64,000 nucleotides of DNA from a virus: positions 1-64,000 of the IMG/VR virus record IMGVR_UViG_3300046810_000256. One strand, written 5' to 3'. The position numbers and the translations under genes were made by a program. The notes under the pieces were generated by a model. It was not told where the DNA came from, did not search any database, and worked only from the letters and a program-made list of their open reading frames with translations. Below, piece by piece: positions 1 to 34,602 of the stretch (position 1 is the stretch's first letter; each line of letters opens with the position of its first letter).

Positions 1-262
1 CCACGGACTGGATCAACTGCCCCTTCAGATGCTCCTGATAGAACTGCCGCGCCTTCTCAAACGCGACTTGGCCAGCCTCCGCGTCTGGCTTCTGTGGCTG
101 GCCCAGCAGTGCGCGAATCGCCAGCCCGCGCGTGCTGGCGCGAATCTTCTCGATGGGCGACAGCGATTCACCGGTCAACCCGGCCCGGATCTGCAATAGC
201 TCAGCGCTCAGGCGTGCCCGCTCAATCGGCGACAGCACGCCCGGTTGGCTCAAGTCACTCAT
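1..262 (-). CDS. Partial protein with SPIE(K/R)-type helical repeats
   Basis: This gene runs off the left edge, so only its first 87 residues are visible. It starts with ATG at 262 inside the last codons of the preceding polyvalent-protein gene (8-bp overlap), which implies translational coupling. The visible part contains SPIERARLSAELLQIR near residues 11-26, followed by SPIEKIRAS and then LAIRALLG. The same arrangement opens the neighbouring 774-residue protein (SPIEKARLSSRLLALR, later LEKVRAS and LAIRSKLT), so the two share an N-terminal helical module. I infer that they belong to one set of phage polyvalent or co-injected proteins. The C-terminal function cannot be judged. Confidence 0.85.
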   Translation of the reverse strand, partial: MSDLSQPGVLSPIERARLSAELLQIRAGLTGESLSPIEKIRASTRGLAIRALLGQPQKPDAEAGQVAFEKARQFYQEHLKGQLIQSV

Positions 263-2579
263 CAAAACCCCCAAAAATCGAATCCAGCAATGCGGTGTTG
301 GCCAGCGCCTTCTCAAAGGTCTTGCCGTCGCGCAGCGTCTTGAAAAGCGCGTCGAACGCGGCGCCGATGCGCGCGCGCTCTTCTCCCTCCGGATAAGGCT
401 TGAATGGCAGGCCTTGCTCGGGGAAGTAGTGGTGTTTGTTGTCAGCCAGGCAGCTTAGGTAATCGTTCTGGCGATCCATGGCCGTCAGCTTGTCTTCCAG
501 ATAGGACTGGAACGCCCGCGCCGCCATTTCAGGGGTCGATGACCAGTATTTGCCTTCCTTGGAGTTGTCCAGCAGTGCCGCTTCGGCCATGTAGCGGGAG
601 ACGCCTTTTCCGGTGTTCAGGCGAACTTCTGTGGTGCCTTCTGGCGAGAAATACGCGGCGGCGATGGTGCGCCAGTTCTTTTTGTACTTGAGCGACCGGG
701 CGTCATTGCGCTTGCCAAAATAGGCGTCGACCGCCAGCACAGCCGCTTCAGCATTTCCGGCAGCCTTGATGCGTTGGGCAATGTCATTGCGCGGGGTGTC
801 GACGTTCAAGCGGGCATTGCCGAACGTGCGGGGCGTGAACTTGATTGTCTCGGGTAGCCGGTGATCGCCTTCGGTCAGTGCCTGCTTGAGCCCAACAAAG
901 GCGTTTCGGATTGGCCCCTCCGGCAGCAGATCGGGCTTTTCGACTCCAAACTCATCAGCTGCGCCCGCCTCGCCGCGTAGCAAGCCCGGCAGGATGTTGT
1001 CCATCGCGTGGAAGTGCTCGTGACCCAAGCCACCGCCGCCGTTCATTTTGGTGATGTTGATCGCACGTAGCACCGGTTCGTACTGCGCAGTGGCGGCGCC
1101 CTTCCCGCCCTTGCCACGGGCGCCGAACGCCAGCCCCAGGCGCCCATCGAAACCCAGGTGCTTCTCGTCGATGCCGAGGACGTCGGCCATGTCCATCATG
1201 GCGCCCGCTGACTGCTCTACGTGCCATTTGGAGCTGTCGCGGTCATCCAGTACCCAGTTGCCAGACTGCACCGCCCGGAAGCCGCACAGCTGCTGCAACG
1301 AGCGCGTAGAGTTGACGGCCACCGGACGCCCGCCTTTGCGGTCGAACTTGTCCACCACCTTGAGCGCGAAGGTCTGGCGCTTTTTGGTCGGTGCCTTGGG
1401 CGCGCCCTCGATCACGTCGCCGCCCTTCTTGTCCGCCCACTCCCATTCCTTCGGGTCACCGGTCAGTGCGTTGGACACATGCCGGGCGAACGTCTCAGAA
1501 CCCGAACGGCTGCGGAACATCAGCGCTTTGACGAACTTATCGCCCATGGACATCCATGCGCGATTGACTGGCGAGTTCAGGTTGCGGGCCTTGGCCACGC
1601 CCATGATCTCGGCCCGCTCCTGATAGAGCGCGGTGCGCGCCGCCGTCAGCTGCTCAATGGCGGGCTTGTTCTTCTCCAGAAGAGCGGCCCACGCTTTCAT
1701 CGCCTCGTTGTAGGCTTTCTTGGCGTCACGCGCCGCTTGCTCGTGTTCCGGACGAATGCCCCAGCCACGGCTCACACGGTTTTCGAGGTCGCGCTGCGCC
1801 TTGTTGTTCTGGCTGCTCGCCGTGTACATGGCGGTTTGCAGAGTGTTCTGATCGGCTTCCAGCGTGCGGATCTGCTCCGTCATGCCTCGGGCGCGGTCAG
1901 TAACGTCGCCGTAGCGCTCCGCTTCGTCCGCATCCAGCTGCGAGCCCAGCAGCTCGTCGCGGATCTCGTCCAGGGTGGCCACAACCTCTTTCGGGGTCTG
2001 GCACAGCTCCAGGCGCGTGCGCAGCGTCTCCAGACCCAGCACGTAGGCACGGCGCGCCGCCGGGCTGTCTTCGGTCGGTTCCTTGGCAATGGCGGCGTAA
2101 ACACGATCCATCAGGAACGCGGCGGCGGGCTCGGTACCGCCTGCTTTCATCGCATCCCAGTCGACCACGCCGAACAGGTTGGACTTGACCACCAGCGCAC
2201 GCGCTTCGCGTGGCGTTTCTTCAATGGCGTCGAAGTCGATATCGGTAGCGCGCAGCATGCGGCCTTCGGCGCGGGCTTTGCGGATCGCGCCCGCGGCCTC
2301 TTCTTTGCGGCTACCGGGGATATAACCGACGTCGGCATAGCGGTAGTTGGGACTGTTGGGATCGTCGCTCAGGCCGTCGTCTGCGGCTTGCTCAGCGGCA
2401 GTCACCGGGTCGACTTCCGGCGCCGACACCGGCTTACCGGTCAGTTTGCTGCGGATGGCGAGCGCTTCGGCGCTGGCGCGGACTTTCTCAAGTGCCTTGA
2501 GCGCACCGCTGATCAACATCTGGCGCAGGGCCAGAAGCCGCGAACTCAGGCGGGCTTTCTCGATGGGGGAAATTTGCAT
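255..2579 (-). CDS. Polyvalent protein with HEHFH zincin-like domain (LPD1-type)
   Basis: This is a 774-residue protein. Residues about 4-48 carry the SPIEKARLS module shared with the next gene. The middle (about 210-330) is charged and helix-rich. The C-terminal half holds LGHEHFHAMDN near residues 517-527, preceded by LAFGARGKGG. HExxH-type motifs in this setting are typical of large polyvalent protein-associated domains (LPD1, zincin-like) in proteins of phages and conjugative elements, which often enter the cell with the DNA and counter host defences. A metallopeptidase-like role is therefore likely but inferred. The gene follows a 93-bp gap and leads an operon with the gene at the left edge. 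Confidence 0.9.
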   Translation of the reverse strand: MQISPIEKARLSSRLLALRQMLISGALKALEKVRASAEALAIRSKLTGKPVSAPEVDPVTAAEQAADDGLSDDPNSPNYRYADVGYIPGSRKEEAAGAIRKARAEGRMLRATDIDFDAIEETPREARALVVKSNLFGVVDWDAMKAGGTEPAAAFLMDRVYAAIAKEPTEDSPAARRAYVLGLETLRTRLELCQTPKEVVATLDEIRDELLGSQLDADEAERYGDVTDRARGMTEQIRTLEADQNTLQTAMYTASSQNNKAQRDLENRVSRGWGIRPEHEQAARDAKKAYNEAMKAWAALLEKNKPAIEQLTAARTALYQERAEIMGVAKARNLNSPVNRAWMSMGDKFVKALMFRSRSGSETFARHVSNALTGDPKEWEWADKKGGDVIEGAPKAPTKKRQTFALKVVDKFDRKGGRPVAVNSTRSLQQLCGFRAVQSGNWVLDDRDSSKWHVEQSAGAMMDMADVLGIDEKHLGFDGRLGLAFGARGKGGKGAATAQYEPVLRAINITKMNGGGGLGHEHFHAMDNILPGLLRGEAGAADEFGVEKPDLLPEGPIRNAFVGLKQALTEGDHRLPETIKFTPRTFGNARLNVDTPRNDIAQRIKAAGNAEAAVLAVDAYFGKRNDARSLKYKKNWRTIAAAYFSPEGTTEVRLNTGKGVSRYMAEAALLDNSKEGKYWSSTPEMAARAFQSYLEDKLTAMDRQNDYLSCLADNKHHYFPEQGLPFKPYPEGEERARIGAAFDALFKTLRDGKTFEKALANTALLDSIFGGFDE

Positions 2580-5219: not shown

Positions 5220-5987
5220 TTAGGCGGCCAATTCGACCAGGGGTATACGGCTCATGTGCATGGTGTAACCGGTGTGTTTCTCAAGCTCGACGTATTGGGC
5301 GAACAGCTCCGGGCGCTGCTCTCGTCCGTTCCGCAAGTCTCGTTTGTTGGCCATGATGCAGAACACACAGCTCAGGCGATCATTGCCGAGCGCGTAGGCG
5401 TAGTGCGGCTCCTGGCCAGCCTGCTCGATGATCCCAAAAATCTCAGCCGACGACAGGTCGTGAACCGGCAACCATTCGTACCATGTGTTGACGCTGTTCG
5501 AATCGCGCTCATTTAGCCGAAGCGGCACCCGCTTCGCCCGTCCTGGCGACTCCTGAGCGCGCAAGCCGAGGCAGTTCACAATGACTTTGTATCCGTTGGC
5601 CTTGGCGTAGCGGCGAACCTCACGCTGAATCGGGCCGCGTTTCAGGTCGCTGGTGCATTGGCGGGTAGACGCGGATGGCCAGCTTGGAACCTCGGGGCGC
5701 CCCTCGAAACGCCGCGTCACCATTTCCAGCAACGTCTTGCTTGCGGTCGCCACGATGAACGGAAGGCCAGCTGCTGCCGCTTGGTCGCGTGCCAGCTCCA
5801 TTGCGCCAGGCCACTCCATTGCGCCCAGCGAGGCATGCACGACAACCATTTGCGCAGCCGGTACCCGCTCAAGCAAGCGGATCAGCTGCGCCTGCGAATC
5901 CTTGCCGCCCGAGTGATTGGCAACGAATAGCGCGCCTTCGGCTATCAGGCGGTCAATCTGGCTTGCATCGGCTTGAGTGCTATTCAT
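5220..5987 (-). CDS. PAPS-reductase-fold (PP-loop) protein
   Basis: This is a 255-residue protein of the adenine nucleotide alpha-hydrolase superfamily. The PP-loop SGGKDS is at residues 26-31. The family signature QCTSDLKRGPI lies in the middle and a C-terminal Cys pair occurs in RLSCVFCIMANKRD. Phages and plasmids often encode such stand-alone domains. Relatives include PAPS reductases and DndC-like sulfur-modification enzymes, so both assimilatory reduction and nucleic-acid modification remain open. No neighbouring dnd or sulfur-assimilation gene is present. The gene is followed by the conserved 83-residue small gene and preceded by a hairpin. Confidence 0.88.
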   Translation of the reverse strand: MNSTQADASQIDRLIAEGALFVANHSGGKDSQAQLIRLLERVPAAQMVVVHASLGAMEWPGAMELARDQAAAAGLPFIVATASKTLLEMVTRRFEGRPEVPSWPSASTRQCTSDLKRGPIQREVRRYAKANGYKVIVNCLGLRAQESPGRAKRVPLRLNERDSNSVNTWYEWLPVHDLSSAEIFGIIEQAGQEPHYAYALGNDRLSCVFCIMANKRDLRNGREQRPELFAQYVELEKHTGYTMHMSRIPLVELAA

Positions 5988-6896: not shown

Positions 6897-9800
6897 TTAG
6901 AAGGCCTCCGCCGTGGCTTTGAGTGCGTGCTGGCTGTACGCCTCGGCTGCATCGGCAAACAAGCCGCTCAGCTCGCCCTCACCGTAGGCCGCGTAGATAC
7001 GCTCCAGCTCTTTCATCACGCTGTCAGGGTCGCCCAGGTCGGCGGAACCATCAATGATGCTGTCAAGGTAGGCTTTGGCTTTCTGCAAGGCGGTGTCCTT
7101 TTCGTCGGTGGTCTGCTCAGCCGTCTGTGCCGGGGGCTGGCTGAAGAGGTCATTCTGCTCGATGGCGAACACACCTTCACCGAATTCCTTTTCAAGCTCG
7201 GTGTTGGCGGCCTTGACGATATCGGCAAAGGTGGCGGGCTCATCACCGAACAGACCGGCAGTCTGCTTGCGACGTGCTTCCGACTCCACGAACTGCGCCA
7301 TGGCCTTGAACGCGGCGCCGAGGCGCTTGGCGCTACGGTTGTTCTTGCTGATGAACATCGCCATTGCAGCCACGGACGGATCGACGTCACCGAACATATC
7401 GCTTTGGCGCAGGAACTCGTCCAGGCCCATCCCGCTGTCCTTGGCTTTACGCAACACGTTGGTGGCGTTGATGATCGCGTTTACCGCTTCCTGATCCAGC
7501 GACAGTTCCAGAGAGTCGGTCACCTTCTCGCCAGCGGCCTCGGCGCCTACCGCGTCCAGTTCCTTGGCGCGCATGAAGTCAGGCGCGGCCATGTTCAGCG
7601 CGCTGACGATGTTGGCAATCTCGGGCTTGCTGGAATCGGCGGTGAGCTCCAGCAGGCGGTCGTCGGAATAGGCGCCAGCAAAGAGCGCGGCCTGCACGCG
7701 GTTGACCAGACTGGCGGTCGGGCGCCCGTCGGTGGTCATGTACTGAGCCGCTTCAGCATCGCCCAGGCTTTGCAGGAACGCGCTGACAAAATCGCGGTTC
7801 GCGGCACTGGTGAGGTCGCCGTCGGCCAGCTTCGCCATCATGGCAGTGTCGAGGCGCTTGGCATCGCTGCGGGCCTTCTCAGTCGCAGTCATGGCCAGCT
7901 TGTCGTCTTGGTTGGCTTCTACGGCGAACTCAGCGCGATCCACGGCACTGACGCGCACACGCACCAGCACCGGGGCTTTCATGCTCTCGATTTTGCTGGC
8001 GCTGACTTTGAAGTAGTCGGCGTGCTCCAGCAGCCACTGGCGGTATTCGTCGGCCTGGCCAATGCGGTATGCCTCACGGATGGCCATGGCGCGACCGTTA
8101 CCGGATTCCACCACGCGGTCTTTACCGACGATAGGCGCGCCACTGTCGGCACGGTTGGTGCGCCCCAGGCTGTCCGGATCAAGATTGCGGGCCGTCTTCT
8201 GCACCCACGCCTGAGACGTCGCACGCGCACGGTCACGCGGTTGCAGCTCGCTCGGGTAGTCCGGGTTCGCGGTACCGTCGGATTCGTGGCTGATGATCAG
8301 GTTTTTAGCGTCAATCACCTTGAAGCCGGTGACAACCTTCGTCCCCTTGGCGGTTTTAACGGTGTTCTCGCGGCCTTCGGGTTCAATCTCGCCAGAGTCG
8401 TCGTTATTGGCAGGGTCAGATACACCAGACAGGTCAACAACCTCGCCAACCTTCGATTCGAAGTCATCGGTATTCAGCAGCTTCGTCATGTACTGCTTGC
8501 CGTCTTTGTCGAAGTACACGTTTTCGGCGCCGACACTCAGAACCGTTGCAGAACCTAATGCAGCAACGTCCTTGTAGTCCTCCAGAATCGTGCTGCTGGT
8601 CGACACTGCCGGGATTGTCTCCTGAGCCTTTTTCAGATCGCGCAGACCGAATCCGTCTACCTTGGCCTTGGCAGCGCTCACGAGGTCACGCCCGATACCG
8701 GCCAGAATTTCGTCTTTGGTGCCGCTGGCGCCCAAGCTGAAGCCAGCTTTCAGCACGAGCTCACGCAGCGCATCAACATCGTCGATTGCATCCAGCACAC
8801 CCAGCGCACCCATCGCGTTACCGGCGACCAGCGCCGCGGTCAGCTTCTCCAGATCGGTGCGGTTGTCCCGCAGGCTTGGGTCATCGCCGAGCATGTCCGG
8901 CTGCGCGTCAGGCTTCAGCGATGCCGCTTGCTCGCTGACTTCTGATGCTTCCGGCCCACGATACCCGGCGTCCCACAGCTGTTTCGCCATGTCGGCGATG
9001 TCTTTGACCAGATTCCCGTAATACGCATCGTCTGACGACATGTCGGCGAGTCTGGCGCGAGCACCCGCCAGCATTTCCAGCAAACGTGCGATCTTCTGCG
9101 CCTCAGGATCGTCGGCGCCGTTGCCATGGTCTTGATTGTCCAGGCCAGCGGTCTGTTGCGCTTCCAGCGTGCGCAGCATTTCGGAAACGTCCGCCAAGTA
9201 ATTGCTGGCGTTGATGGTGGCGAGAATGCCGCCGCTGTCGATGGCCGCCTGAGTCTCGGCGATAGTGGTGGTCAGCCAGGCAATGGCGTTTTTCTTGTTG
9301 CCACCCTTACCGACAATCGAACGCCCGGTTTTCTTGCCGGACTGGACGGCGACCAGATCCGCTTTGTGCTCTGCGAGCTTGGTGGTCAGTGTGTCGACGG
9401 TGAAGCCTTTCTGCTCGCCGCTCGCCACCTGCGCCATGAACTCTTCGCGAGTGAGTGGCGTGCCGCCCAGCGCTTTGATCTTCTCCGCGATGCCATCGGC
9501 TTGCGCCAGGTACTGCTCGGCGTATTCGGATGCCTTGGCCGCAATGCCTTCTGGCGTGGTTTCCGTGCTAGCGACCGGCGCGGGGAGCTTGTCGACTTTG
9601 GCTTGCAGATCCGCAACCTGCTCATCAAGGCTTTGCAGCTCGGCGACCTTGCTCTGCACCTGGCCCTTGAGTTCTTCGATTTTGGCGGCGCTCTCAGCAC
9701 TGGCGCCGCTGGCCTTGATGAACTTCGCGCTGTTCTTCTCCACCAGCGTCATGATGCGGCGGGCCACTTGCCGCGGGCTGATGTCCTGGCCGCGCTCGGG

Positions 9801-10787
9801 CGCCACTACAACGGTGATGTCTTTCTTGTTCAGCACCCACTTCCAGCTGATCAGTTCGTCCGTGGCCGTGAGCCGGTTGGGCGTGCTGTCTGGATTGTGA
9901 AAGAACACCGACACGGTCTGGCCGTCGCTCATCGTGAACAGCATAGCCACCTGAGTGGTGCCGCGATTCTTGAATGGCTGGCTGACTTCTACGGCGTCGA
10001 CCTTGACCGTGCTGGCCGCGGCCTTCATCACGCGCAGCAGCTGGTTTGCCTTGCGGTCAAACTGGGCGTACTCGATCACCATGGCATCGAGCATGTGCCC
10101 ATCACTCAGCAGCTCGGTGATGTCGGCCATCGTTGCGCTGTCGAGCAGCAGTTTGTCGGGATCGCTCCGGCGCAGGCCATACATCACCTCACCCAAGGTC
10201 ATGCCCGCGGGCAGATTGTCCTCGCCCCAGGCCACTACGGCGCCGGTCATAGGTGTCACCTCATCATCAATCAGGTCGGCGGCCTCAAGTGGCCGGGTTA
10301 GATCGCCTGACTTGAGCCAGGCCTTGAACTGTTTCACGGAGCACACCACGTAGCTGCCCATGCCCTGCCAGCCGCGCTCATAGCTATTGCTGTAGGCCGA
10401 GAGAGCGCCGTCGACGTCGTGAAAGCCCAGCACTGCCTTGTGCTCATCAAAGGTGCGGTCTTTCTTCACCTGATTCACAACGACCACCAGCGTACTTTCA
10501 GGGGTCGGCCCCACGTACACGTCAAACGCATCACCGTCGGCGCCGGTATAGCCGTTGAGGTAGCCGTAGTTCGCCATGCAGACAATCGACCACGGCTCGC
10601 CGTCAGCCTTGCCTGTGCGCGGGGTGAACATCGGGGTTTCAATGGTGAAGTTCATGCCGTGCAGGCGCACGCTGCCCTTCGGGTAGTTGCCCGCCCGGAC
10701 TTGTGCCGGGGTCGGCGCGCGTTTTACGCCAAGGCCGAACGCACCGCTATGCGCGGCGGCGTTCAACTTTGCATAGGGATCAGTCAT
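6897..10787 (-). CDS. Large polyvalent protein with InPase-like and DdrB/ParB-like domains
   Basis: This 1296-residue protein has an N-terminal region (about 15-190) with ADGDAFDVYVGP near residues 82-93. That matches the inorganic-pyrophosphatase-like domain found in phage polyvalent proteins. A coiled-coil stretch near 350-400 follows. The segment VVESGNGRAMAIREAYRIG near residue 895 is characteristic of the ddrB-like ParB superfamily domain of phage P1 DdrB and relatives. Such proteins are thought to travel with the DNA and protect it from host restriction. The multi-domain length is normal for the group. The gene is preceded by an independent unit ending in a terminator at 10868 and is followed by a signal-peptide peptide gene. 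Confidence 0.92.
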   Translation of the reverse strand: MTDPYAKLNAAAHSGAFGLGVKRAPTPAQVRAGNYPKGSVRLHGMNFTIETPMFTPRTGKADGEPWSIVCMANYGYLNGYTGADGDAFDVYVGPTPESTLVVVVNQVKKDRTFDEHKAVLGFHDVDGALSAYSNSYERGWQGMGSYVVCSVKQFKAWLKSGDLTRPLEAADLIDDEVTPMTGAVVAWGEDNLPAGMTLGEVMYGLRRSDPDKLLLDSATMADITELLSDGHMLDAMVIEYAQFDRKANQLLRVMKAAASTVKVDAVEVSQPFKNRGTTQVAMLFTMSDGQTVSVFFHNPDSTPNRLTATDELISWKWVLNKKDITVVVAPERGQDISPRQVARRIMTLVEKNSAKFIKASGASAESAAKIEELKGQVQSKVAELQSLDEQVADLQAKVDKLPAPVASTETTPEGIAAKASEYAEQYLAQADGIAEKIKALGGTPLTREEFMAQVASGEQKGFTVDTLTTKLAEHKADLVAVQSGKKTGRSIVGKGGNKKNAIAWLTTTIAETQAAIDSGGILATINASNYLADVSEMLRTLEAQQTAGLDNQDHGNGADDPEAQKIARLLEMLAGARARLADMSSDDAYYGNLVKDIADMAKQLWDAGYRGPEASEVSEQAASLKPDAQPDMLGDDPSLRDNRTDLEKLTAALVAGNAMGALGVLDAIDDVDALRELVLKAGFSLGASGTKDEILAGIGRDLVSAAKAKVDGFGLRDLKKAQETIPAVSTSSTILEDYKDVAALGSATVLSVGAENVYFDKDGKQYMTKLLNTDDFESKVGEVVDLSGVSDPANNDDSGEIEPEGRENTVKTAKGTKVVTGFKVIDAKNLIISHESDGTANPDYPSELQPRDRARATSQAWVQKTARNLDPDSLGRTNRADSGAPIVGKDRVVESGNGRAMAIREAYRIGQADEYRQWLLEHADYFKVSASKIESMKAPVLVRVRVSAVDRAEFAVEANQDDKLAMTATEKARSDAKRLDTAMMAKLADGDLTSAANRDFVSAFLQSLGDAEAAQYMTTDGRPTASLVNRVQAALFAGAYSDDRLLELTADSSKPEIANIVSALNMAAPDFMRAKELDAVGAEAAGEKVTDSLELSLDQEAVNAIINATNVLRKAKDSGMGLDEFLRQSDMFGDVDPSVAAMAMFISKNNRSAKRLGAAFKAMAQFVESEARRKQTAGLFGDEPATFADIVKAANTELEKEFGEGVFAIEQNDLFSQPPAQTAEQTTDEKDTALQKAKAYLDSIIDGSADLGDPDSVMKELERIYAAYGEGELSGLFADAAEAYSQHALKATAEAF

Positions 10788-13862: not shown

Positions 13863-14257
13863 TGTGCGGGGTTTTCCTTGTTGGGTGTCATTGGATAAGG
13901 GCAGTCGAACAATCCCAACCGCCCGTTGATGCTGAAGAACGGCAGCGGGCGCGGATCTCGCAGCACCATTGCTTTGTTGCCGTCCATGTACCAGGGCGAG
14001 CGGTGCTGTTCCACGCTGTCGACCACTTCAACTGACCCGATAACGCCACCGCGTAGCAGCTCAGCAGCTGGTGGCACAGTTACGCCAATGCTCTGCGCGA
14101 ACTCAGCAGCAAAGGCGTATTCCTGTTTCGTCATGCCTTTCGAAGCGTGAACCAACAACCGTCCGCGGAACTTGGTAAGCCAGCTGCGATTCTCGATATC
14201 CTTGCCGCCGTGGATGATCAGCCACGCCCACGGCTGGCGAATGCTCAGTGTTTTCAT
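13859..14257 (-). CDS. ASCH domain protein
   Basis: This 132-residue protein opens with TLSIRQPWAWLIIHGGKDIE, followed by NRSW and GRLLVHASKGM. These are hallmarks of the ASCH (PUA-like) fold, which binds RNA or modified bases and in some members acts as an N4-acetylcytidine amidohydrolase. Later GVIGSVEVVDSV gives the core beta-strand. It overlaps the SNF2-like helicase gene by ATGA at its start. Phage ASCH proteins are common; substrate unknown. Confidence 0.88.
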   Translation of the reverse strand: MKTLSIRQPWAWLIIHGGKDIENRSWLTKFRGRLLVHASKGMTKQEYAFAAEFAQSIGVTVPPAAELLRGGVIGSVEVVDSVEQHRSPWYMDGNKAMVLRDPRPLPFFSINGRLGLFDCPYPMTPNKENPAQ

Positions 14258-16002
14258 ACCAGCTCCAATTGCTTGCGAATGTGCGTTGCAGGTTCAGCGA
14301 CCGGCAGCACCACGTTGTTGTCCTTGAGGTATTTTTCAGCCAGCGATCTCAGGTGGTTCTCGCCCACGTCGAGGCGTTGCAGAAGATCGTCAGTAGGGTT
14401 GCGCACGCCCTCGATCTGCTCGCGCTTGATGCCCAGCACGTCAGACACAATCGGGTCGCTTCCTTCGTTGGAAAGCAGGTAGTACGCCATCACCCGGTCA
14501 ATCTGGCCATCACGGTGCAGGCGGCCCATGCACTGCTCATGCACTCCCGGTGACCAATCCAGCTCACCGAATACTGCTGAACTGCACCCATGCTGCAACC
14601 CGTCAACGCCAGCGCCAGCGCGCAGACTGATCAGCATCACACGGCTATTCCCACTGACAAATGCGTCTTTGGAGGCCTGTTTCTGGCTGGGTGACTCGCT
14701 ACCGGTGTACATAACCGGGTTGTACGCGGCCAGTTTCTCTTTCCAGATTTCGTAAACGTCGCGGTGCCATCCGAAAAGCAGAACGCGCTCTTCCGTCTCC
14801 AGCAGCAACTTCACGAACTCGGCAACGTAAGGCGCTTTGGCCACGCCGGTCGCATGACGTACCAGCAAGTCCAGCTCACCCGCCGCTTTCATCTTCTGGC
14901 CACGGTGCTGTTCGTTGGCGGCCATGATGGTTTTCGCCAGCGCTACAGCGTCCCCGGTGATGCTCTCCATCACCTTGGCGTCAAACTCGATCTCGTGGGC
15001 AATCTTCGACAGGGCTGGCAGCTCGCGGCCTACCTCGCGACGGGTACGGCGCAGCATCAGCCCTTCGCGGCGCAGGTATTCACCGAACGCTATGGAATCC
15101 TTGAGTCGAGGTTTTCCGTCATTCCCACGGTCACACCATTCGCGCAGGAATTCGTCCCAACCGCCCAACGCATCAGGGGTCAGCACGTTCACGACAAAGA
15201 AGAACTCGCCGCCGTAGTTATAGATCGGCGTGGCCGTGAGCCCCATTCTCAGATCGACCTTTTCAGCCAGGTACTTACACGCCGTATAGATTTCGCTGCC
15301 TGGGTTGCGCAGCTGCTGACACTCTTCGAATACGGCATATTGCGCGATCTCGCCCAGCACTTCCGCCCAGCCGCGCAGCTTGTGGTAACTGACCAGAATC
15401 ACGTCTGGCAGTGTGTCCCACAGGTCTTTTCGGCGTTGGCCAGACTTCTTGATCAGGTCATACGGCTTGCCGCTGTTGACGTGATGCACGCGCAGGTTTG
15501 GCAGGAACTCCGCCAGTTTCTCGGGCCAGTGGTTTGGGAGTGACGCCGGATACACGACAACGGCGGGCAAGTTGCCCTTGGCCGCCATCAGACACATGGC
15601 GGTGATGGTCTTGCCCAGTCCGAGGTCATCGGCCACCAGCAGCCCGCCGCGGATGCCTGTTTGAGCCGCTGCGAAGCGTTGGTATTCACGCGCAGGCTTT
15701 GCCAGTTCGAAGGGAGGCAGCTCTACGCGCCCAGCCAGCAGCTCGGCCAAGCTCGATTCCATGTTTACGTGCTCGGACGCCAGCTGATCCAACTTGTTGG
15801 CAGTCTCCGGCGGCATCGTCATTGGATAGCGCTGAAGAAACCACAGCAGCTCTCGGCTGTTTTCCGCGGTGGCCATCAACTTGATCGTCTCGGCAGCCTC
15901 TTGCGGGGCGCGCGGAAACACTCGCTTGAGTCGCGCCCGTACTTGCGGCTCACATTTGACATGCCAATAGCGCCCTTCGAAGGCTACTTGTCCGTAGCTC
16001 AT
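14254..16002 (-). CDS. SNF2-family DNA-dependent ATPase/helicase
   Basis: This 582-residue superfamily 2 protein has Walker A DDLGLGKT near residue 127 and motif III LTATPIYNYGGE near 255. The C-terminal helicase lobe includes LFGWHRDVYEIW near 413, and motif VI CMGRLHRDGQIDRV lies near 495. At the motif II position, usually DEAH or DEGH, it reads FEECQQLRN. The Asp is therefore replaced by Glu, and Cys-Gln follows, although related phage proteins also vary here. It probably remodels or unwinds DNA during replication or recombination. It is coupled to the PD-(D/E)XK nuclease upstream and the ASCH gene downstream by 4-bp overlaps, so the three probably act together. Confidence 0.92.
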   Translation of the reverse strand: MSYGQVAFEGRYWHVKCEPQVRARLKRVFPRAPQEAAETIKLMATAENSRELLWFLQRYPMTMPPETANKLDQLASEHVNMESSLAELLAGRVELPPFELAKPAREYQRFAAAQTGIRGGLLVADDLGLGKTITAMCLMAAKGNLPAVVVYPASLPNHWPEKLAEFLPNLRVHHVNSGKPYDLIKKSGQRRKDLWDTLPDVILVSYHKLRGWAEVLGEIAQYAVFEECQQLRNPGSEIYTACKYLAEKVDLRMGLTATPIYNYGGEFFFVVNVLTPDALGGWDEFLREWCDRGNDGKPRLKDSIAFGEYLRREGLMLRRTRREVGRELPALSKIAHEIEFDAKVMESITGDAVALAKTIMAANEQHRGQKMKAAGELDLLVRHATGVAKAPYVAEFVKLLLETEERVLLFGWHRDVYEIWKEKLAAYNPVMYTGSESPSQKQASKDAFVSGNSRVMLISLRAGAGVDGLQHGCSSAVFGELDWSPGVHEQCMGRLHRDGQIDRVMAYYLLSNEGSDPIVSDVLGIKREQIEGVRNPTDDLLQRLDVGENHLRSLAEKYLKDNNVVLPVAEPATHIRKQLELV

Positions 16003-18061: not shown

Positions 18062-19258
18062 TTATTCGTTGAAGGGTTCGCCGTAAGCGTCCATGCCGTT
18101 GTCATTGAGGTGCTGGCGGCCCTTCTCAGACAGGAAGTAGATACCCTCGGCCACGTCGAGCATCGACTGCGCCAGCAGAGTGGCCAGCGCATCGTGGTCG
18201 GTGATTTCGTCCTCAGACGCTGCGTCCGCCTTTGCGATGGCCACCAACTGATCCAGCGCCTTGTCATCCATCTGGCGGTCTTTCGCGCTGTCGAGCAGCG
18301 CGATGGCCGTCCGGAAGGATTCGGCCATACGCATTTCGTGCAGTGCCTGCTCTACGTTGCCTTCTGCCAGGTTGATTGGGCCATTGTTCTCGACCACCTC
18401 AAGGCCGACTTGCAAGTGGGCGATTGCGCCAGCTGTAGCTGCGTCGTCGAGCATGGTGCCGCTAGCGGCGACAATTTCCCGCGCCGCCACGTAGGCGCTG
18501 GCCAGCGATAAACCCTTCGGCGCTTCTTCAGTCGCTTGGGGTGCCGCGTCGAGCATGGCAGCGCACGCGCGGCCTTTGTCGTTGAGTACGTTGGCGCCCT
18601 TGTTGGTGTAACGGTCGATCAAACCGAGATCGATAAGCGAGTCACGCCCGGCCTTGCTCGGCACGTCGCCATCTTCAAGCACCTGGCCTTCAGCTTTGGC
18701 CAACTTGGTCAGCACGTCGCGGGCCGCATCGTCCAGGCTGGCCAGCTCCGTCGGTACCGAATCGGTCATTGCGCCGCCCAGCTTCGATACCAGTTCAGCA
18801 ATAGTCGACTTGCGGGCGCTGATTTGAGTGTCGAGCTCACTCACCTGTTGCGCCAGTGCGTCGACCTGCTTGGGCTTTGGCGTGGACATACCACGAGGCA
18901 ACGCTACAGCCTTGCGGGCCTGAGCTTTCTGGAAGGGAACCTGATTCTTTTCAGCCATGGCAGCAATCTCGCCCACTGCCTTTTCAACGTCGGAATGTTC
19001 CTTGAGTGGCTTCACCGATCCATTGAGCAGCACCTGATAGATATCACCGGTACTGTTCACTCGCAGGGTGACGGTCTGGCCACTGGCAAGCATCAACATG
19101 GCTTCGCGGTAGGTCGTATCGGAACTGCGGCGAGGTTTCTGACTGAATTCAGACGAAACAACGGATTGTCCCGCACGCCCCATCTGCTGACTGATCAGTT
19201 TGATTGCCTTGTCAGCACCAGCGGGCGAAGAGAAGTCCAGGGTATTGGTTTTGGGCAT
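18062..19258 (-). CDS. Polyvalent-like protein of unknown function, 398 aa
   Basis: I use ATG 19258 (MPKTNTLDFSSPAGADKAIK); the open frame extends to 19504, but the extension is low-complexity and lies over a hairpin. An N-terminal domain of about 110 residues contains YREAMLMLASGQTVTLRV and GDIYQVLLNGSVKPL. A coiled-coil (QVDALAQQVSELDTQISARK) follows, then a long helical C-terminus ending EGIYFLSEKGRQHLNDNGMD, which looks like a winged-helix. The build resembles accessory proteins that accompany DdrB-type genes on phage-plasmids. The function is not established. Confidence 0.75.
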   Translation of the reverse strand: MPKTNTLDFSSPAGADKAIKLISQQMGRAGQSVVSSEFSQKPRRSSDTTYREAMLMLASGQTVTLRVNSTGDIYQVLLNGSVKPLKEHSDVEKAVGEIAAMAEKNQVPFQKAQARKAVALPRGMSTPKPKQVDALAQQVSELDTQISARKSTIAELVSKLGGAMTDSVPTELASLDDAARDVLTKLAKAEGQVLEDGDVPSKAGRDSLIDLGLIDRYTNKGANVLNDKGRACAAMLDAAPQATEEAPKGLSLASAYVAAREIVAASGTMLDDAATAGAIAHLQVGLEVVENNGPINLAEGNVEQALHEMRMAESFRTAIALLDSAKDRQMDDKALDQLVAIAKADAASEDEITDHDALATLLAQSMLDVAEGIYFLSEKGRQHLNDNGMDAYGEPFNE

Positions 19259-19350
19259 GGGGCGAATACTCGGGAGTGTGTGGAAATACCCGATATTTTG
19301 AAGCGGAAAAGCGCGGGCGTAATGTGGCGCTTTGCGCCGCAAACCCTCCC

Positions 19351-19389
19351 GCTTGCCTGTTCTTTCGCTGCGCTTCAGAACAGGCAAGC
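19351..19389. repeat. Long perfect hairpin, 13-bp stem
   Basis: GCTTGCCTGTTCT pairs perfectly with AGAACAGGCAAGC around a 13-base loop. The sequence on both sides reads CCCTCCCG, giving a symmetric flank. Confidence 0.65.
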
Positions 19390-19919
19390 CCTCCCGGCCC
19401 CGTAAAGGTTTCGAGTGGTTCGCCTTGCTACTCACTTTTGGAAGAATCGGCGAGATTCCTGCCCCCATTGCCCGCTGAGTAGACACTTCATAGACCTGCT
19501 GCATTACCGGATCTTGTCCTGTGGGACGATCCCCGCGGCGTTTTTAACGTGGTGCCGGTCTATTCCCCTTGCCCACATGGTAATGCCCCCAGGTTGCGAG
19601 CCTGGGAAGGCGTGAAGCGCGTCGCACGGTCGGCCCTGTGCAATGAATCCCCATTGGGCCGTACAGTCGCAAAGACGGGTAACAATCGCTTGATATCCAA
19701 CCCCATCTATCGCATACGCTTACGTCCATTTCGGGCGCACGAAAACAACTCGGGCGCGCGAAAAAGCGCGACTGCTCGATGAGTGAGGGGGCGAATCTGT
19801 AGACAAGGACGCGAGATCGCGCCAGAATTGACCTACAGAGTCGAGTTCCCCCGCCGCCAAAGCAAAGGATTCCCCTCGACTCAAGGCTAAAGGAGTTTGC
19901 ACCTCCGCATTAGCCCTTC

Positions 19920-27710: not shown

Positions 27711-29095
27711 CAGTTCGCTGTCTCCGTGACGACTTCCAGGCTCTCTTCAGTCACGTACCGGAAGTGTTCGGGTAAGTCCGCCGTGTCGTCGCCGATCATG
27801 TCGACAGAGATATCAGCAACGCGCTGTGTCAGCGCCGGAATGTTCTTGCGCAGCAGGTCGTAGATGTCTTTCTTAAGCATCTTCGCTTCGCCGCGCTTGG
27901 CCCAGTCAGATTCGCGCCCGTAATTCTCAAGGATCAGCGCTCGCACGGCCTGCATCGTTGCCGCAGAGTCATATGTCGAGGGAACGTAGAGGGTGAGCTT
28001 GAGCGGTACCGCCTTCTCAATCGCGTCCACGAACTTGATGCGGTAGCTGTTATCGGCAGTGGTGATGATCAGCCTGATTTCGCTTTGCAGCGCGCTCGGG
28101 GTTACGCCGTTCTTCAACACGGACACGAACAGCTTGTTCATGTTCTCGACGCTGGCGGGCCGCACCGATTCCTCTTTCAGCTCGTTCCACACGTTGAGGA
28201 ACGTGACAGCGCCAAGCTTTTTGCGCACCAGAAAGTCGAAGTTGGCCCGGTAAACGGCGTTCTCGCTGTAGATGCCCGGAAACGAGCAGATTTCCCGCAT
28301 GGTCGTGACGCTCATGGGCGCCTCACCCGCCTGGCTCACGTCAGACAGCACCATGGTCGCCTTCTCCGTGGCATCGGTGTATTCGAAGTAAAACGCCATG
28401 CCCACGCTCGGGCTGATTTCGCCCTCGGTGTCATAGATGGAGATATTGAGCTTTGTGCCTGTGGCTGGCTGTGTCCCGGCCAGACCGGTAACGCCGAACA
28501 CCAGACTGAGCACCTGATTTTCATCGGTCTGAATGTGATAGACCAGATCGCCATCCAGCACGTTGCAGAACTCGGGGGCGTACTCCCAACCGGTCACAGT
28601 TACTTCAGCGATATAGCCAATATCAGGCTCTGCCAGTTCGACAGGATAAAACGGCTGATTCTGCGCCACCGCATGCGTCACGGTTCGCAGCTCCACCTGG
28701 CGGGCGACGATGGTGCCAGTGCCACCAGCTGCTACTTGGGCGCCGGTCGTAACCCGCCACATACGCCCATTCTGATCGCGCAGCACGCGCCCGCCGAGGA
28801 TCTTCAGCAGTTTCGTGCCGCCGTTCGTGACGGTAATGGCGGCGATGCACGGGCGACCGAATGGCAGAACACCCTTTACCGAGGCGTCCGCCAGCACTGT
28901 CACGTCGCGCGCCTTCAGGTAAGTCTCACCCGCTGTTACCTCCACCTGATTGGCCACGTCGGCGAGCATGGCCGCCATGGACGCCAGCCCTTGCGTAATC
29001 AGCGGATCACCGATCTGGAAGCGCTTGGTCAAGGTCGGGTAATTGGTGATTTCGTCTACGGCGCTCTGTAGGAACTGGTCTTTAGTAATTGCCAC
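27710..29095 (-). CDS. Baseplate J-like protein
   Basis: This 461-residue protein has the features of baseplate wedge protein J. The N-terminus has LASMAAMLADVANQVEVTAG then ETYLKARDVTVLADASVKG, a long central beta region follows, and a C-terminal helical domain has KKDIYDLLRKNIPALTQRVA. It forms the inner wedge of a contractile-tail baseplate and argues for myovirus morphology. It overlaps the preceding small wedge gene. Confidence 0.85.
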   Translation of the reverse strand: MAITKDQFLQSAVDEITNYPTLTKRFQIGDPLITQGLASMAAMLADVANQVEVTAGETYLKARDVTVLADASVKGVLPFGRPCIAAITVTNGGTKLLKILGGRVLRDQNGRMWRVTTGAQVAAGGTGTIVARQVELRTVTHAVAQNQPFYPVELAEPDIGYIAEVTVTGWEYAPEFCNVLDGDLVYHIQTDENQVLSLVFGVTGLAGTQPATGTKLNISIYDTEGEISPSVGMAFYFEYTDATEKATMVLSDVSQAGEAPMSVTTMREICSFPGIYSENAVYRANFDFLVRKKLGAVTFLNVWNELKEESVRPASVENMNKLFVSVLKNGVTPSALQSEIRLIITTADNSYRIKFVDAIEKAVPLKLTLYVPSTYDSAATMQAVRALILENYGRESDWAKRGEAKMLKKDIYDLLRKNIPALTQRVADISVDMIGDDTADLPEHFRYVTEESLEVVTETAN

Positions 29096-32072: not shown

Positions 32073-32984
32073 TTACTGCCCACCGAGGACGGAACCAACA
32101 ACCGACAGGACTTTCTTGACGCCGCTGGTAACGGTGGCCATGGCGCCCTTGTCGTCTTCCTTCTCCGGCTCAGGCTGGTAGCCGGGCAGCTCAGTGCGGG
32201 CCATGAATCGGTTCGCGCTGTCGAGCATTGCGGTGCCCGGATCCATGTTGATACCGCGCTCCATCACCGCCGGTGCGCTGTCGAGCATGGGCGCCTCGAT
32301 CTTCGCCTGGCGCAGACGTTCCAGCAGCCTGGCGTTGTACTCAGTCAGTTCATCGTTGATTTTGTATTGCTTCAAGATGTCGTTACTGAGCCCTTCGGCG
32401 AAGGCGTCAGACTCTTTGATCATGTTGTCGACCGAATCCAGCAGCGCGGCGCTTTCCGTTGGGAAGGTGTCGACCGGCGCGAATACGCCCGGCGTCACAC
32501 TGTCCAGCATCACCGCATAGCCGCGGTTGTTGTCGTAGTTCGGCGCACGCACCAGATCCATGCCGAAATACCCCTTGGGCACGCGCAGGCCGTTCTCTTC
32601 AGGCGCGTAGATTGCCGAACTGAAGCCATAGGCCTTGCTGTCCCACAGACGCGCGCCAACACGCCCCGGCGCGGTATCAAGAAACTCTTGCTCGTGCTCC
32701 ACGTCACCATTTGGGTAGCACTTGAGGTAGAGCGTGCGGCACGTCGGCTCAAGCACTACAGGCACGTTGTCCACCATGACGGTTTCCGGAACGTCCAGCC
32801 CGTATTTCTCCCGGTACTGGTGGCCGATAAAGCCATAGATGTCACCCTTGCGGATCGACTCCTGAAGCGCCGCACCGTTGAACAAGCGCATGGCGGCATC
32901 AATGTCGATTGCGCGCTTCTGCCCGGTGAAGCTGCGCTTGATGTCGTTCAGGTTGTAGCGGATCACGCCCGTGCGCTTACTCAT
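32073..32984 (-). CDS. Head morphogenesis protein, possible prohead protease
   Basis: This 303-residue protein is encoded directly after the portal with an 8-bp overlap. It contains DIYGFIGHQYREKYGLDVPE and LDTAPGRVGARLWDSKAYGF, and the C-terminal half is rich in LLDS repeats (ALLDSVDN, PMLDSAP, AMLDSAN). Portal-adjacent proteins are often prohead proteases or scaffold/protease fusions, and the GH...VGARL pattern is compatible with one. No catalytic triad is certain. The repeated LDSA segments could be self-cleavage or scaffold elements. Confidence 0.55.
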   Translation of the reverse strand: MSKRTGVIRYNLNDIKRSFTGQKRAIDIDAAMRLFNGAALQESIRKGDIYGFIGHQYREKYGLDVPETVMVDNVPVVLEPTCRTLYLKCYPNGDVEHEQEFLDTAPGRVGARLWDSKAYGFSSAIYAPEENGLRVPKGYFGMDLVRAPNYDNNRGYAVMLDSVTPGVFAPVDTFPTESAALLDSVDNMIKESDAFAEGLSNDILKQYKINDELTEYNARLLERLRQAKIEAPMLDSAPAVMERGINMDPGTAMLDSANRFMARTELPGYQPEPEKEDDKGAMATVTSGVKKVLSVVGSVLGGQ

Positions 32985-34602
32985 CTAGATTGTCCTCGTT
33001 GTCTTTGTTGCCGCCAGCGTTCGCGCCTGGTGGTAGATCCATGTCGAAGTCGCCGCCACCGCCTGGCTGTACCGGTGGTTTCGCGTTGGCCAGCCCCTTG
33101 GCGAACATTTCCGCGCCCTCTGTGTCCATTTCCGCGACCTTGGCCAGCATGTACACCACGACGTCTTCCGGCAGACCCAGCTCACGCAGCTGCGCAAGGA
33201 TCTGCACGAGAATCGCGGCCTTGTTCATCGCTTTTTCGGAGCTCGACTGTTTCTCGGCCTCAAGCGCCGCGATACCGCCGTAGAAATTGATCGTGTAAGG
33301 GCGTTCGGTGTCCGGCCAGCACTTGCCGTACTTGGCCATCATGTGGCGGTCGATGGTGTCGTTGCAGGTCTTGGTGTAGCTGGTGCGCATCATCCGAGCG
33401 CGTTCGGCGCCCATGGCGCTGGTGCGGTTCGATCCGCCGTCGCCCAGGCCGCCCGACAACTGATCAGCGAAACCCATTTGGGAAATATCGGTACCGAGCG
33501 TGCCCGCCAGCTTCTTGGCGTGAAACATCACGTCTTCAATGCCGAGGTTCTGGCCGTTGGCGCCGGAAGCAATGCTGCTCACTTGGGTCAGCTGCTTGTT
33601 GTTGGAAACCGGAATAACGTTGAAATTACGGGACGTCGAATAAACGCCTTCCTGAATCTGCTTGTGCGCCCGCTCTTTCATGGCGGTGAGCATTTTGGTC
33701 AGGTTCTCGATGGTCTTGGCGCGCTGTTCCTTGGTGGTGTCGGCCAGGTCAATCGTCAGCAGAACCTCTTCGATAGAGCTAGCGATACGCTGCCCCACCA
33801 GACCGCGCAGCGCCGAATACAGGTTGTCAAAGTCCTGCTCAGCGGCCTCCAGCAACGAACCGCCCACCAACCCCGGGAGCGGCATGACATCGCGCAGGTT
33901 GACGGCTTCAAGATTGATCTTCTGCGCGTTCTCAATGATTTTCGTCTGAGGCAGCACCAGCATGCGCGGCATTTTCCAGCGCACGATATCCATGTGGCTG
34001 AGCTTGCTCTGCATCTTCTCGCCCAAGCTCACTACATAACCAACTGTGCGGCCCAGTTCTTCATAGGGCTGCACCAGCGGTGTCCAGAGCGTTTCATGGT
34101 CGAACGCCACAAGCCCTTCGCCCTTGATGGTGTACGCGCGAGCGTAGGAGTCGCCAAACCCGGCAGCGTTGAAACCCATGGAGTGGCAGCTGTCGTTCAG
34201 CATCTTGATGACTGGCGCCAGCTCGTCGACCATCTTCTGATCAGCACGACTGATATGCGGCTTCGCCTCAAGGAAAACGGTTTCCCCGGTGGTTTCGTGC
34301 CCGCCAAGTGCCATCTGGACGTTGTTGCGCAGGGCCGTGGAGATAAGCCCTTCCTGCATCATGAAATGGTATTTCATGTAAATCTGCGAGCGGGTGCGCA
34401 CCGGCTTGCCGGAGTTGCCCAGCAACATCTCGACGCCGACATAATCCGCATCGAAGGTGTCCACTTGATCCAGTCGCCGCATCGCGTGCTGATTGGCTTC
34501 GCTGGCGCTCATGTCGGAGAGTTGGCCGCCCATGATCAGGTCACGGGCGCCACCAATGAATCGCGACACCAGCCCTTTTTGGGGTTCAGTTGAATTAGCC
34601 AT
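32977..34602 (-). CDS. Portal protein
   Basis: This 541-residue protein resembles portal vertex proteins of large myoviruses. The N-terminal part has YVGVEMLLGNSGKPVRTRSQ. The clip and stem regions contain KMPRMLVLPQTKIIENAQKI and GQRIASSIEEVLLTIDLADT. The C-terminus is a disordered Gly/Asp-rich tail (GGGGDFDMDLPPGANAGG). It is the DNA gate and terminase docking site of the capsid. The neighbouring protease-like gene and the upstream terminase genes support the assignment. Confidence 0.8.
   Translation of the reverse strand: MANSTEPQKGLVSRFIGGARDLIMGGQLSDMSASEANQHAMRRLDQVDTFDADYVGVEMLLGNSGKPVRTRSQIYMKYHFMMQEGLISTALRNNVQMALGGHETTGETVFLEAKPHISRADQKMVDELAPVIKMLNDSCHSMGFNAAGFGDSYARAYTIKGEGLVAFDHETLWTPLVQPYEELGRTVGYVVSLGEKMQSKLSHMDIVRWKMPRMLVLPQTKIIENAQKINLEAVNLRDVMPLPGLVGGSLLEAAEQDFDNLYSALRGLVGQRIASSIEEVLLTIDLADTTKEQRAKTIENLTKMLTAMKERAHKQIQEGVYSTSRNFNVIPVSNNKQLTQVSSIASGANGQNLGIEDVMFHAKKLAGTLGTDISQMGFADQLSGGLGDGGSNRTSAMGAERARMMRTSYTKTCNDTIDRHMMAKYGKCWPDTERPYTINFYGGIAALEAEKQSSSEKAMNKAAILVQILAQLRELGLPEDVVVYMLAKVAEMDTEGAEMFAKGLANAKPPVQPGGGGDFDMDLPPGANAGGNKDNEDNLDE

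Follow-up and report, generated by a model that had tools for sequence, protein, structure and literature searches.

A two-helix module related to the N-terminal half of P1 DdrA, a probable head-docking domain on several enzymes of P1-type phages

The window analysed here is a stretch of 64,000 bp, the first part of the 83,006-bp virus record IMGVR_UViG_3300046810_000256 (IMG/VR). At its left end lie two minus-strand genes, overlapping by 8 bp (255-262), which encode an LPD1 zincin-like polyvalent protein and an LPD3 methyltransferase. A module of some 45 residues is common to the N-termini of both products. To judge from profile comparisons, it is a remote homologue of the N-terminal half of DdrA, a protein of phage P1, and it probably serves to dock different enzymes in the phage head. 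The features concerned are:

255-2579, minus strand: gene for the 774-residue LPD1 zincin-like polyvalent protein (open reading frame, ORF; Pfam LPD1)
330-572, minus strand: LPD1 domain, residues 670-750 (Pfam PF18796, E 1e-20)
1008-1022, minus strand: HEXXH zincin motif (HEHFH), H520-H524, read from the sequence
2433-2570, minus strand: module copy 1, zincin residues 4-49, two helices (alignments; AlphaFold2)
2379-2432, minus strand: linker between module and enzyme, residues 50-67, fast-evolving (non-synonymous substitution rate, dN) and of low confidence (predicted local distance difference test score, pLDDT, <50 at residues 55-66)
1-262, minus strand: 5' part of the LPD3/methyltransferase gene, with its start at 262; the gene runs over the circular junction to record position 80058
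98-235, minus strand: module copy 2, methyltransferase residues 10-55 (record search and profiles)

Zincin residues H520, E521 and H524 are invariant in a 16-sequence alignment, which places the protein among the zincin-like metallopeptidases with an HEXXH motif. The methyltransferase gene encodes 1027 residues in total, made up of the module, LPD3 (residues ~69-174, E 1.5e-14) and a C-terminal methyltransferase, whose NPPF motif points to the adenine type.

When the record was searched with the zincin, the sole match besides the protein itself was the N-terminus of its neighbour (49% identity, query residues 3-57, E 3.5e-8). This confirms the sequence-only reading of the locus, in which a 45-residue N-terminal module had been held to be common to the zincin and the gene cut by the window edge. 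The search of the whole replicon that it called for leaves two copies in the record, as six-frame translation yielded no third copy above chance with either two-row or twenty-row profiles. Chance or low complexity as the source of the module is ruled out by the E-value and by conservation in both genes of relatives. The same reading had described an SPIE(K/R) helical module, and here the helices stand: the AlphaFold2 model of the zincin, which is of moderate confidence (mean pLDDT 76.7, predicted template modelling score, pTM, 0.45, 16-sequence alignment), has helices at residues 5-23 and 29-47, followed by a disordered linker at 55-66. The motif fares less well. The ‘SPIE’ proline is not invariant in a 19-row alignment of the module, the invariant columns being R10, L15, L16, R19, L22 and L46. 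The module itself is a duplication of two helices of ~22 residues, since its halves match each other (hhalign score 28.1, against a maximum of 15.2 in 200 column permutations). No Pfam or NCBIfam model covers it, and among solved structures it has no significant match (best E 0.16, to bacteriophytochromes).

In comparison with the relative L009, the zincin module (codons 1-48) has a dN of 0.054 and a ratio to synonymous substitution (dN/dS) of 0.053, and the linker (codons 49-66) a dN of 0.238, about four times the module rate. Recent gene conversion between the zincin and methyltransferase genes is not favoured, as three close relatives have zincin copies with 82-92% identity to the window zincin copy. 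Methyltransferase copies are 35-49% identical to it and more distant zincin copies 43-61%; the latter values, which are identities only and not a tree, suggest an old divergence that leaves little signal of gene conversion.

The start of P1 DdrA, MTLSAIELMDLSDKLDALM..., resembles the module. DdrA (phrog_1855, DdrA-like anti-restriction) has, like the module, an N-terminal two-helix hairpin of ~47 residues followed by a linker, and, like the module genes, it belongs to a P1-type phage and adjoins a DarA gene. It differs in being a free 121-residue protein with its own C-terminal domain, whereas here the hairpin fronts a 774-residue zincin and a 1027-residue methyltransferase, and the identity is low (27% over 48 columns in a global alignment). 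AlphaFold2 predicts for DdrA helices at residues 5-24 and 28-43 and then a disordered linker at 48-63 (mean pLDDT 73.7, pTM 0.43, 6-sequence alignment; moderate confidence), so that the two models share a layout of two ~20-residue helices and a disordered linker. Solved structures gave no significant match for DdrA (best E 0.32); the structure of DarA has been solved (9ukm).

Among five P1 Dar proteins (Ulx, DarB, DdrB, DdrA and DarA), DdrA alone reached the inclusion threshold with the module profile, weakly. A 26-row module profile built without DdrA was run over 16 whole records, and its sole match in the P1-like phage D6 at E <=0.01 was ddrA (28032-28166, minus strand, E 4.4e-5). Profile-profile comparison of 30 module rows with nine DdrA N-termini gave a score of 31.2 over 46 columns, where the maximum in 200 column permutations was 14.2. 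Of 303 windows taken from real alignments of Dar, zincin and methyltransferase sequences, the eight over the module scored 25.0-106.1 and the other 295 at most 15.2, and the three module copies of the relative L094 alone scored 38.9 against DdrA. A nine-row profile of the DdrA N-terminus, searched against 4,982 six-frame ORFs and those of 11 loci, placed two L094 module genes next after DdrA (E 0.0057 and 0.044). When 19 module rows were scanned against 38,880 PHROG families at E up to 10, six of them matched phrog_1855 (best E 0.02), an equal number matched the zincin-type phrog_29900 (best E 0.0017), and four other families were matched by one row each. Two full-length relatives match phrog_1855 at their N-termini (L017, E 0.025; L103, E 0.01). 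The C-terminal domain of DdrA (residues ~65-118) is not seen in the zincin or in the close methyltransferase homologue in L009, which have other domains and no phrog_1855 match at E 1; the homology is therefore claimed for the N-terminal domain of DdrA, and neither protein is taken to be ‘a DdrA’.

The module travels with several kinds of cargo. Fifteen zincin relatives were taken from viral contigs, L007 and L008 sharing one zincin stretch. With the two- and twenty-row profiles, ten of the fifteen (L005-L013 and L017) have the module in both adjacent genes, at the N-terminus or close to it; in L018 it is on the second gene, the zincin being cut by the contig edge. Four others (L014, L015, L016 and L019) had no clear module with these profiles, and a later profile recovered it in L014, L016 and L019. 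The zincin relative at L016:7442-10273 has an extra C-terminal PBECR1 nuclease domain (E 9.4e-12). Altogether, the module stands at or near the N-termini of four protein types, namely the LPD1 zincin, the LPD3-methyltransferase, a DdrB-C-like protein and a DarB-like protein, and it has one free-standing form. A single tag that recurs at or close to the N-termini of cargo proteins otherwise unrelated is the pattern sought in a capsid-targeting sequence. The DdrB-C-like proteins, of 620-652 residues, are found in L094 and L103 and match the C-terminal part of phrog_2299, the P1 DdrB family (E 1.1e-13 and 2.3e-14). Two neighbouring genes carry the module in seven of 16 whole records; in L094 and L103 three do, and in L094 a small gene separates the second from the third.

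The DarB-like case (L125) comes from a Pseudomonas P1-like element found in a scan of 298 genomes from the genus of G009. Here the module occupies ORF residues 17-64, at the N-terminus of a 2150-residue DarB homologue (P1 DarB E 9.4e-139) in which homology to DarB starts at P1 residue 41, ORF residue 100. It thus stands where P1 DarB has its capsid-targeting segment, in the gene order hdf - darA/ddrB - darB - ulx - prt.

The free-standing form is an unannotated ORF of 158 codons in Xanthomonas phage Rb1 (E 5.5e-12 among 1,347 ORFs). It lies between an InPase+DarA_N gene and an annotated metallopeptidase gene (no Pfam match at 0.01), beyond which comes a DarB homologue, and it follows the InPase+DarA_N gene as ddrA follows darA in P1. 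Rb1 holds a second module (L116:7394-7540, E 5.4e-8) close to the C-terminus of another unannotated ORF, which has 164 codons and lies a long way from the Dar genes. A further module ORF (L126:9345-9602) lies directly after an InPase+DarA_N gene and ends at 86 codons, after which all three frames contain stops; it is a decayed or truncated cargo gene.

As far as tested, the module profile is specific: counting the seed genomes, matches were found in three of five, two of 298 and two of 300 genomes. None was found in 369 genomes from the class of G012, a scan that held no positive control, and absences in the 298-, 300- and 369-genome scans are soft, as part of the first-look candidates was scored. 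A tblastn search of phages with two single module peptides gave no match; since Rb1 does hold the module, single-peptide tblastn is blind to it.

The record as a whole points to P1. Its first 127 bp recur exactly at its end, so that it closes to a circle of 82,879 bp. Twenty-three P1 query proteins were compared with the record ORFs at a cut-off of E 0.1, and 11 of them found a match. The strongest were ddrB (E 1.4e-97), portal (prt, 5e-36), protease (pro, 2e-21) and darA (2.3e-21), followed by hdf (5.6e-12), the C-terminal part of gp23 (8.9e-12), gp21, bplA, tub, pmgG and bplB. No ORF in the record matched ddrA, darB, ulx, S, R, gp16, pmgA, sit, pmgB, pmgC, simC or gp22 at this cut-off, so that a free DdrA was not found among the record ORFs; the sheath was recognised through phrog_1036. 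Portal, protease, capsid, Hdf, DarA and DdrB homologues are all present, as in a P1-type phage with a Dar system, and by these protein matches the circle is a distant P1 relative. The features outside the module genes are:

1-127 and again at 82880-83006, no strand: 127-bp exact terminal repeat, a sign of a circular molecule
6897-10787, minus strand: InPase + DarA_N + ddrB-ParB fusion of 1296 residues (Pfam; P1 ddrB and darA matches as above), counterpart of P1 DarA and DdrB
18062-19504, minus strand: Hdf-like protein with DarA_N (P1 hdf match as above; phrog_1620 E 2.1e-32; DarA_N E 1.7e-13)
32073-34602, minus strand: P1-type portal (32977-34602; phrog_1497) and prohead protease (32073-32984), with the P1 prt and pro matches given above
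78261-79943 of the record, minus strand: major-capsid (P1 gp23) homologue ORF, the next large same-strand ORF downstream of the methyltransferase gene

The DarA_N domain inside the Hdf-like protein suggests kinship between Hdf and DarA. An SNF2-type helicase is encoded by a gene of its own (14254-16002, Pfam) on the same strand as the Dar genes; as P1 DarB unites a methyltransferase and a helicase in one protein, its two halves may be separate proteins here. A PAPS-reductase-family gene is found at 5220-5987, amid plasmid-maintenance and Dar genes. RPA-type replication and ParA-type genes in the record fit a phage-plasmid, and among plasmids its best relatives come from Pseudomonas and measure 81-114 kb.

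The interpretation of work on P1 followed here rests on PMC9024508, PMC12810830 and PMC12707154. All six Dar proteins sit in the P1 head, DdrA being a structural protein seen by mass spectrometry, and the first 30 residues of DarB suffice to bring a TetR-mCherry reporter into the capsid (PMC9024508). A common Dar signal was suspected, but BLAST gave no consensus among Dar N-termini (PMC9024508). According to the discussion in PMC12810830, the inner shell is lined by DarA and Hdf, in whose absence DdrA, DdrB, DarB and Ulx fail to be packaged. The DarB capsid-targeting sequence resembles the module in being N-terminal, of similar size and borne by a DNA-methyltransferase polyvalent protein. The capsid targeting sequence of T4 internal proteins is likewise short and transferable and brings various proteins into the head (PMC9024508); the likeness is one of function, and homology is not claimed. 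Polyvalent proteins with LPD1, LPD3, zincin and methyltransferase domains have the same enzyme domains and the same predicted delivery with phage DNA (PMC5512222); the module is not mentioned in the peptidase, methylase and LPD sections of that paper, nor was it found there by term search. A domain common to DdrA and other Dar or polyvalent proteins was not found described in the literature searched, which was mostly non-subscription and did not include the main 2017 paper on P1 Dar.

We consider it probable that the module is a portable helical-hairpin Dar docking domain, homologous to the N-terminal half of DdrA, which loads different enzymes into the phage head. Its likeness to DdrA and its place in the stead of the DarB targeting segment in L125 make docking in the prohead the simplest account, and lend support to the sequence-only suggestion of a packaging or injection signal. 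That suggestion would have fallen had other virion proteins lacked the module, and remote homology to a P1 virion protein, DdrA, was found. The analysis establishes the module with its duplication, its relation to DdrA, where it occurs and in what position, and the kinship of the phage with P1; virion incorporation, the receptor, ejection and the enzyme targets are what we infer in the following scheme. The hairpin, put in front of different enzymes, would cause each to be loaded into the assembling head. Late in infection, it would bind a single receptor within the prohead, shared by all tagged proteins; the likeliest are the DarA/Hdf-type proteins encoded at 6897-10787 and 18062-19504 or the shell itself. 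The flexible linker would leave the enzyme free. The tagged proteins would leave the head along with the DNA and work in the newly infected cell, where the methyltransferase may act on the incoming DNA or on restriction, and the zincin may be a self-processing or host-directed protease.

Several observations weigh against this account. Over its full ~47 residues the domain resembles DdrA more than chance would allow, but without intermediates the match is weak: 19 module rows against three DdrA sequences gave 27% probability over 20 columns, and 20 module rows against nine gave 21.5 over 20 columns, where permutations reached 18.6. P1's own DdrA was missed by the genome-wide 26-row profile at E 0.01, the sole P1 match of that profile being a chance-level one to ant1 (E 0.0075), and neither the full-length window zincin nor the window part of the methyltransferase matched phrog_1855 at E 1. 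The N-terminus of P1 DarB has no match to the module, so that P1 uses at least one other signal. In the zincins of L014, L019, L101 and L102 the module starts at ORF residue 142-172; the ~135-170 residues that precede it, in which L019 and L102 have no Pfam match, show that the tag need not lie at the very start of the protein. The methyltransferase module, compared with that of L009, has evolved no more slowly than the stretch that follows it (dN 0.139 against 0.129; dN/dS 0.375 against 0.16). Finally, no module can be detected in 13 of the 34 testable zincin relatives, and in some of these, L113 for instance, no fusion to another Dar domain is visible either.

That last count derives from 36 zincin-bearing loci, which were not de-duplicated (L014 and L101 have one module stretch in common) and many of which also supply profile rows: 21, the window zincin among them, have the module, two (L018 and L107) are cut before its position and 13 lack it. 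Both DarA_N-zincin (LPD1) fusions seen, L015 and L095, are among those without it, as would be expected if the job of the module were to reach DarA, although two cases are few. Other module-less zincins are fused to a methyltransferase (L104), to ddrB-ParB and a helicase (L105) or to InPase (L108). Among the 16 whole records, no module match was found in G006 (which holds L015), W04 (L095) or W06. The last is Acinetobacter phage ABMM1 (L118, L119), a relative of the group by its portal (27.7% identity), in which no module was found. Psychrobacter zincins were not counted, L111 being module-like by eye with scores of 16.1 and 18.2, and L109, L114 and L115 being unconvincing too.

The same facts admit other explanations. 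The hairpin might be a pairing or oligomerization module, through which the zincin and methyltransferase bind each other or themselves, the head being reached in some other way, if at all. Where large proteins carry two or three copies, these are on neighbouring genes, and an internally duplicated hairpin would suit self-association; yet the free-standing copy of Rb1 sits in the place of ddrA, and L125, L014, L019 and L101 each have one copy in the genome or record searched (for the L125 genome, 23 of 57 first-look candidates were scored), so that no partner copy is evident there. We regard pairing as unlikely. Somewhat less likely still, the hairpin could be an effector domain of DdrA that is itself active against restriction in the new host and was fused to other effectors. 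The P1 proteome table does list DdrA as an antagonist of the EcoA endonuclease (PMC9024508), but an effector would not be expected to occur as many as three times in one element, on different enzymes, the invariant positions are mostly leucines with no conserved enzyme-like polar cluster, and in L125 the module replaces the targeting segment of DarB.

The likeness to DdrA could also be the convergence of two amphipathic helices, the module then being a lineage-specific N-terminal domain with an unrelated role, for example in enzyme regulation. Single scores to P1 DdrA are indeed low (6.1 bits), the link is marginal without intermediates, and column permutation removes helix periodicity from the controls. 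Real-sequence controls keep to 15.2 or below against 31.2 for DdrA, however, ddrA is the sole match in D6, the Rb1 copy is syntenic with ddrA, and the module is borne by DdrB-C-like and DarB proteins. We regard convergence as very improbable.

Head docking remains the account that we prefer, and a broader form of it can be put forward with the balance tilted slightly in its favour. The DdrA hairpin would be a dedicated portable docking domain of P1-type phages, a common loading address for injected proteins which can stand alone as DdrA, tag two or three enzymes of a phage close to their N-termini or replace DarB's private segment, and which is dispensable on direct fusion to DarA_N.

To our knowledge, how phages select large proteins for loading into the head has been worked out in few cases. 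Phage-head targeting sequences are an already known kind of signal; what appears to be new is a portable one that different Dar cargo proteins have in common. A domain common to DdrA, a DarB homologue and several enzymes is a concrete object in the search for a common Dar signal, and, if the broader form of the docking account is true, it would be the shared targeting signal that work on P1 sought by BLAST without success (PMC9024508). The module can be deleted, transplanted and sought in the unassigned density that lies beside DarA in the P1 head map (PMC12810830), and it would allow polyvalent virion cargo in P1-like phage-plasmids to be predicted from sequence.

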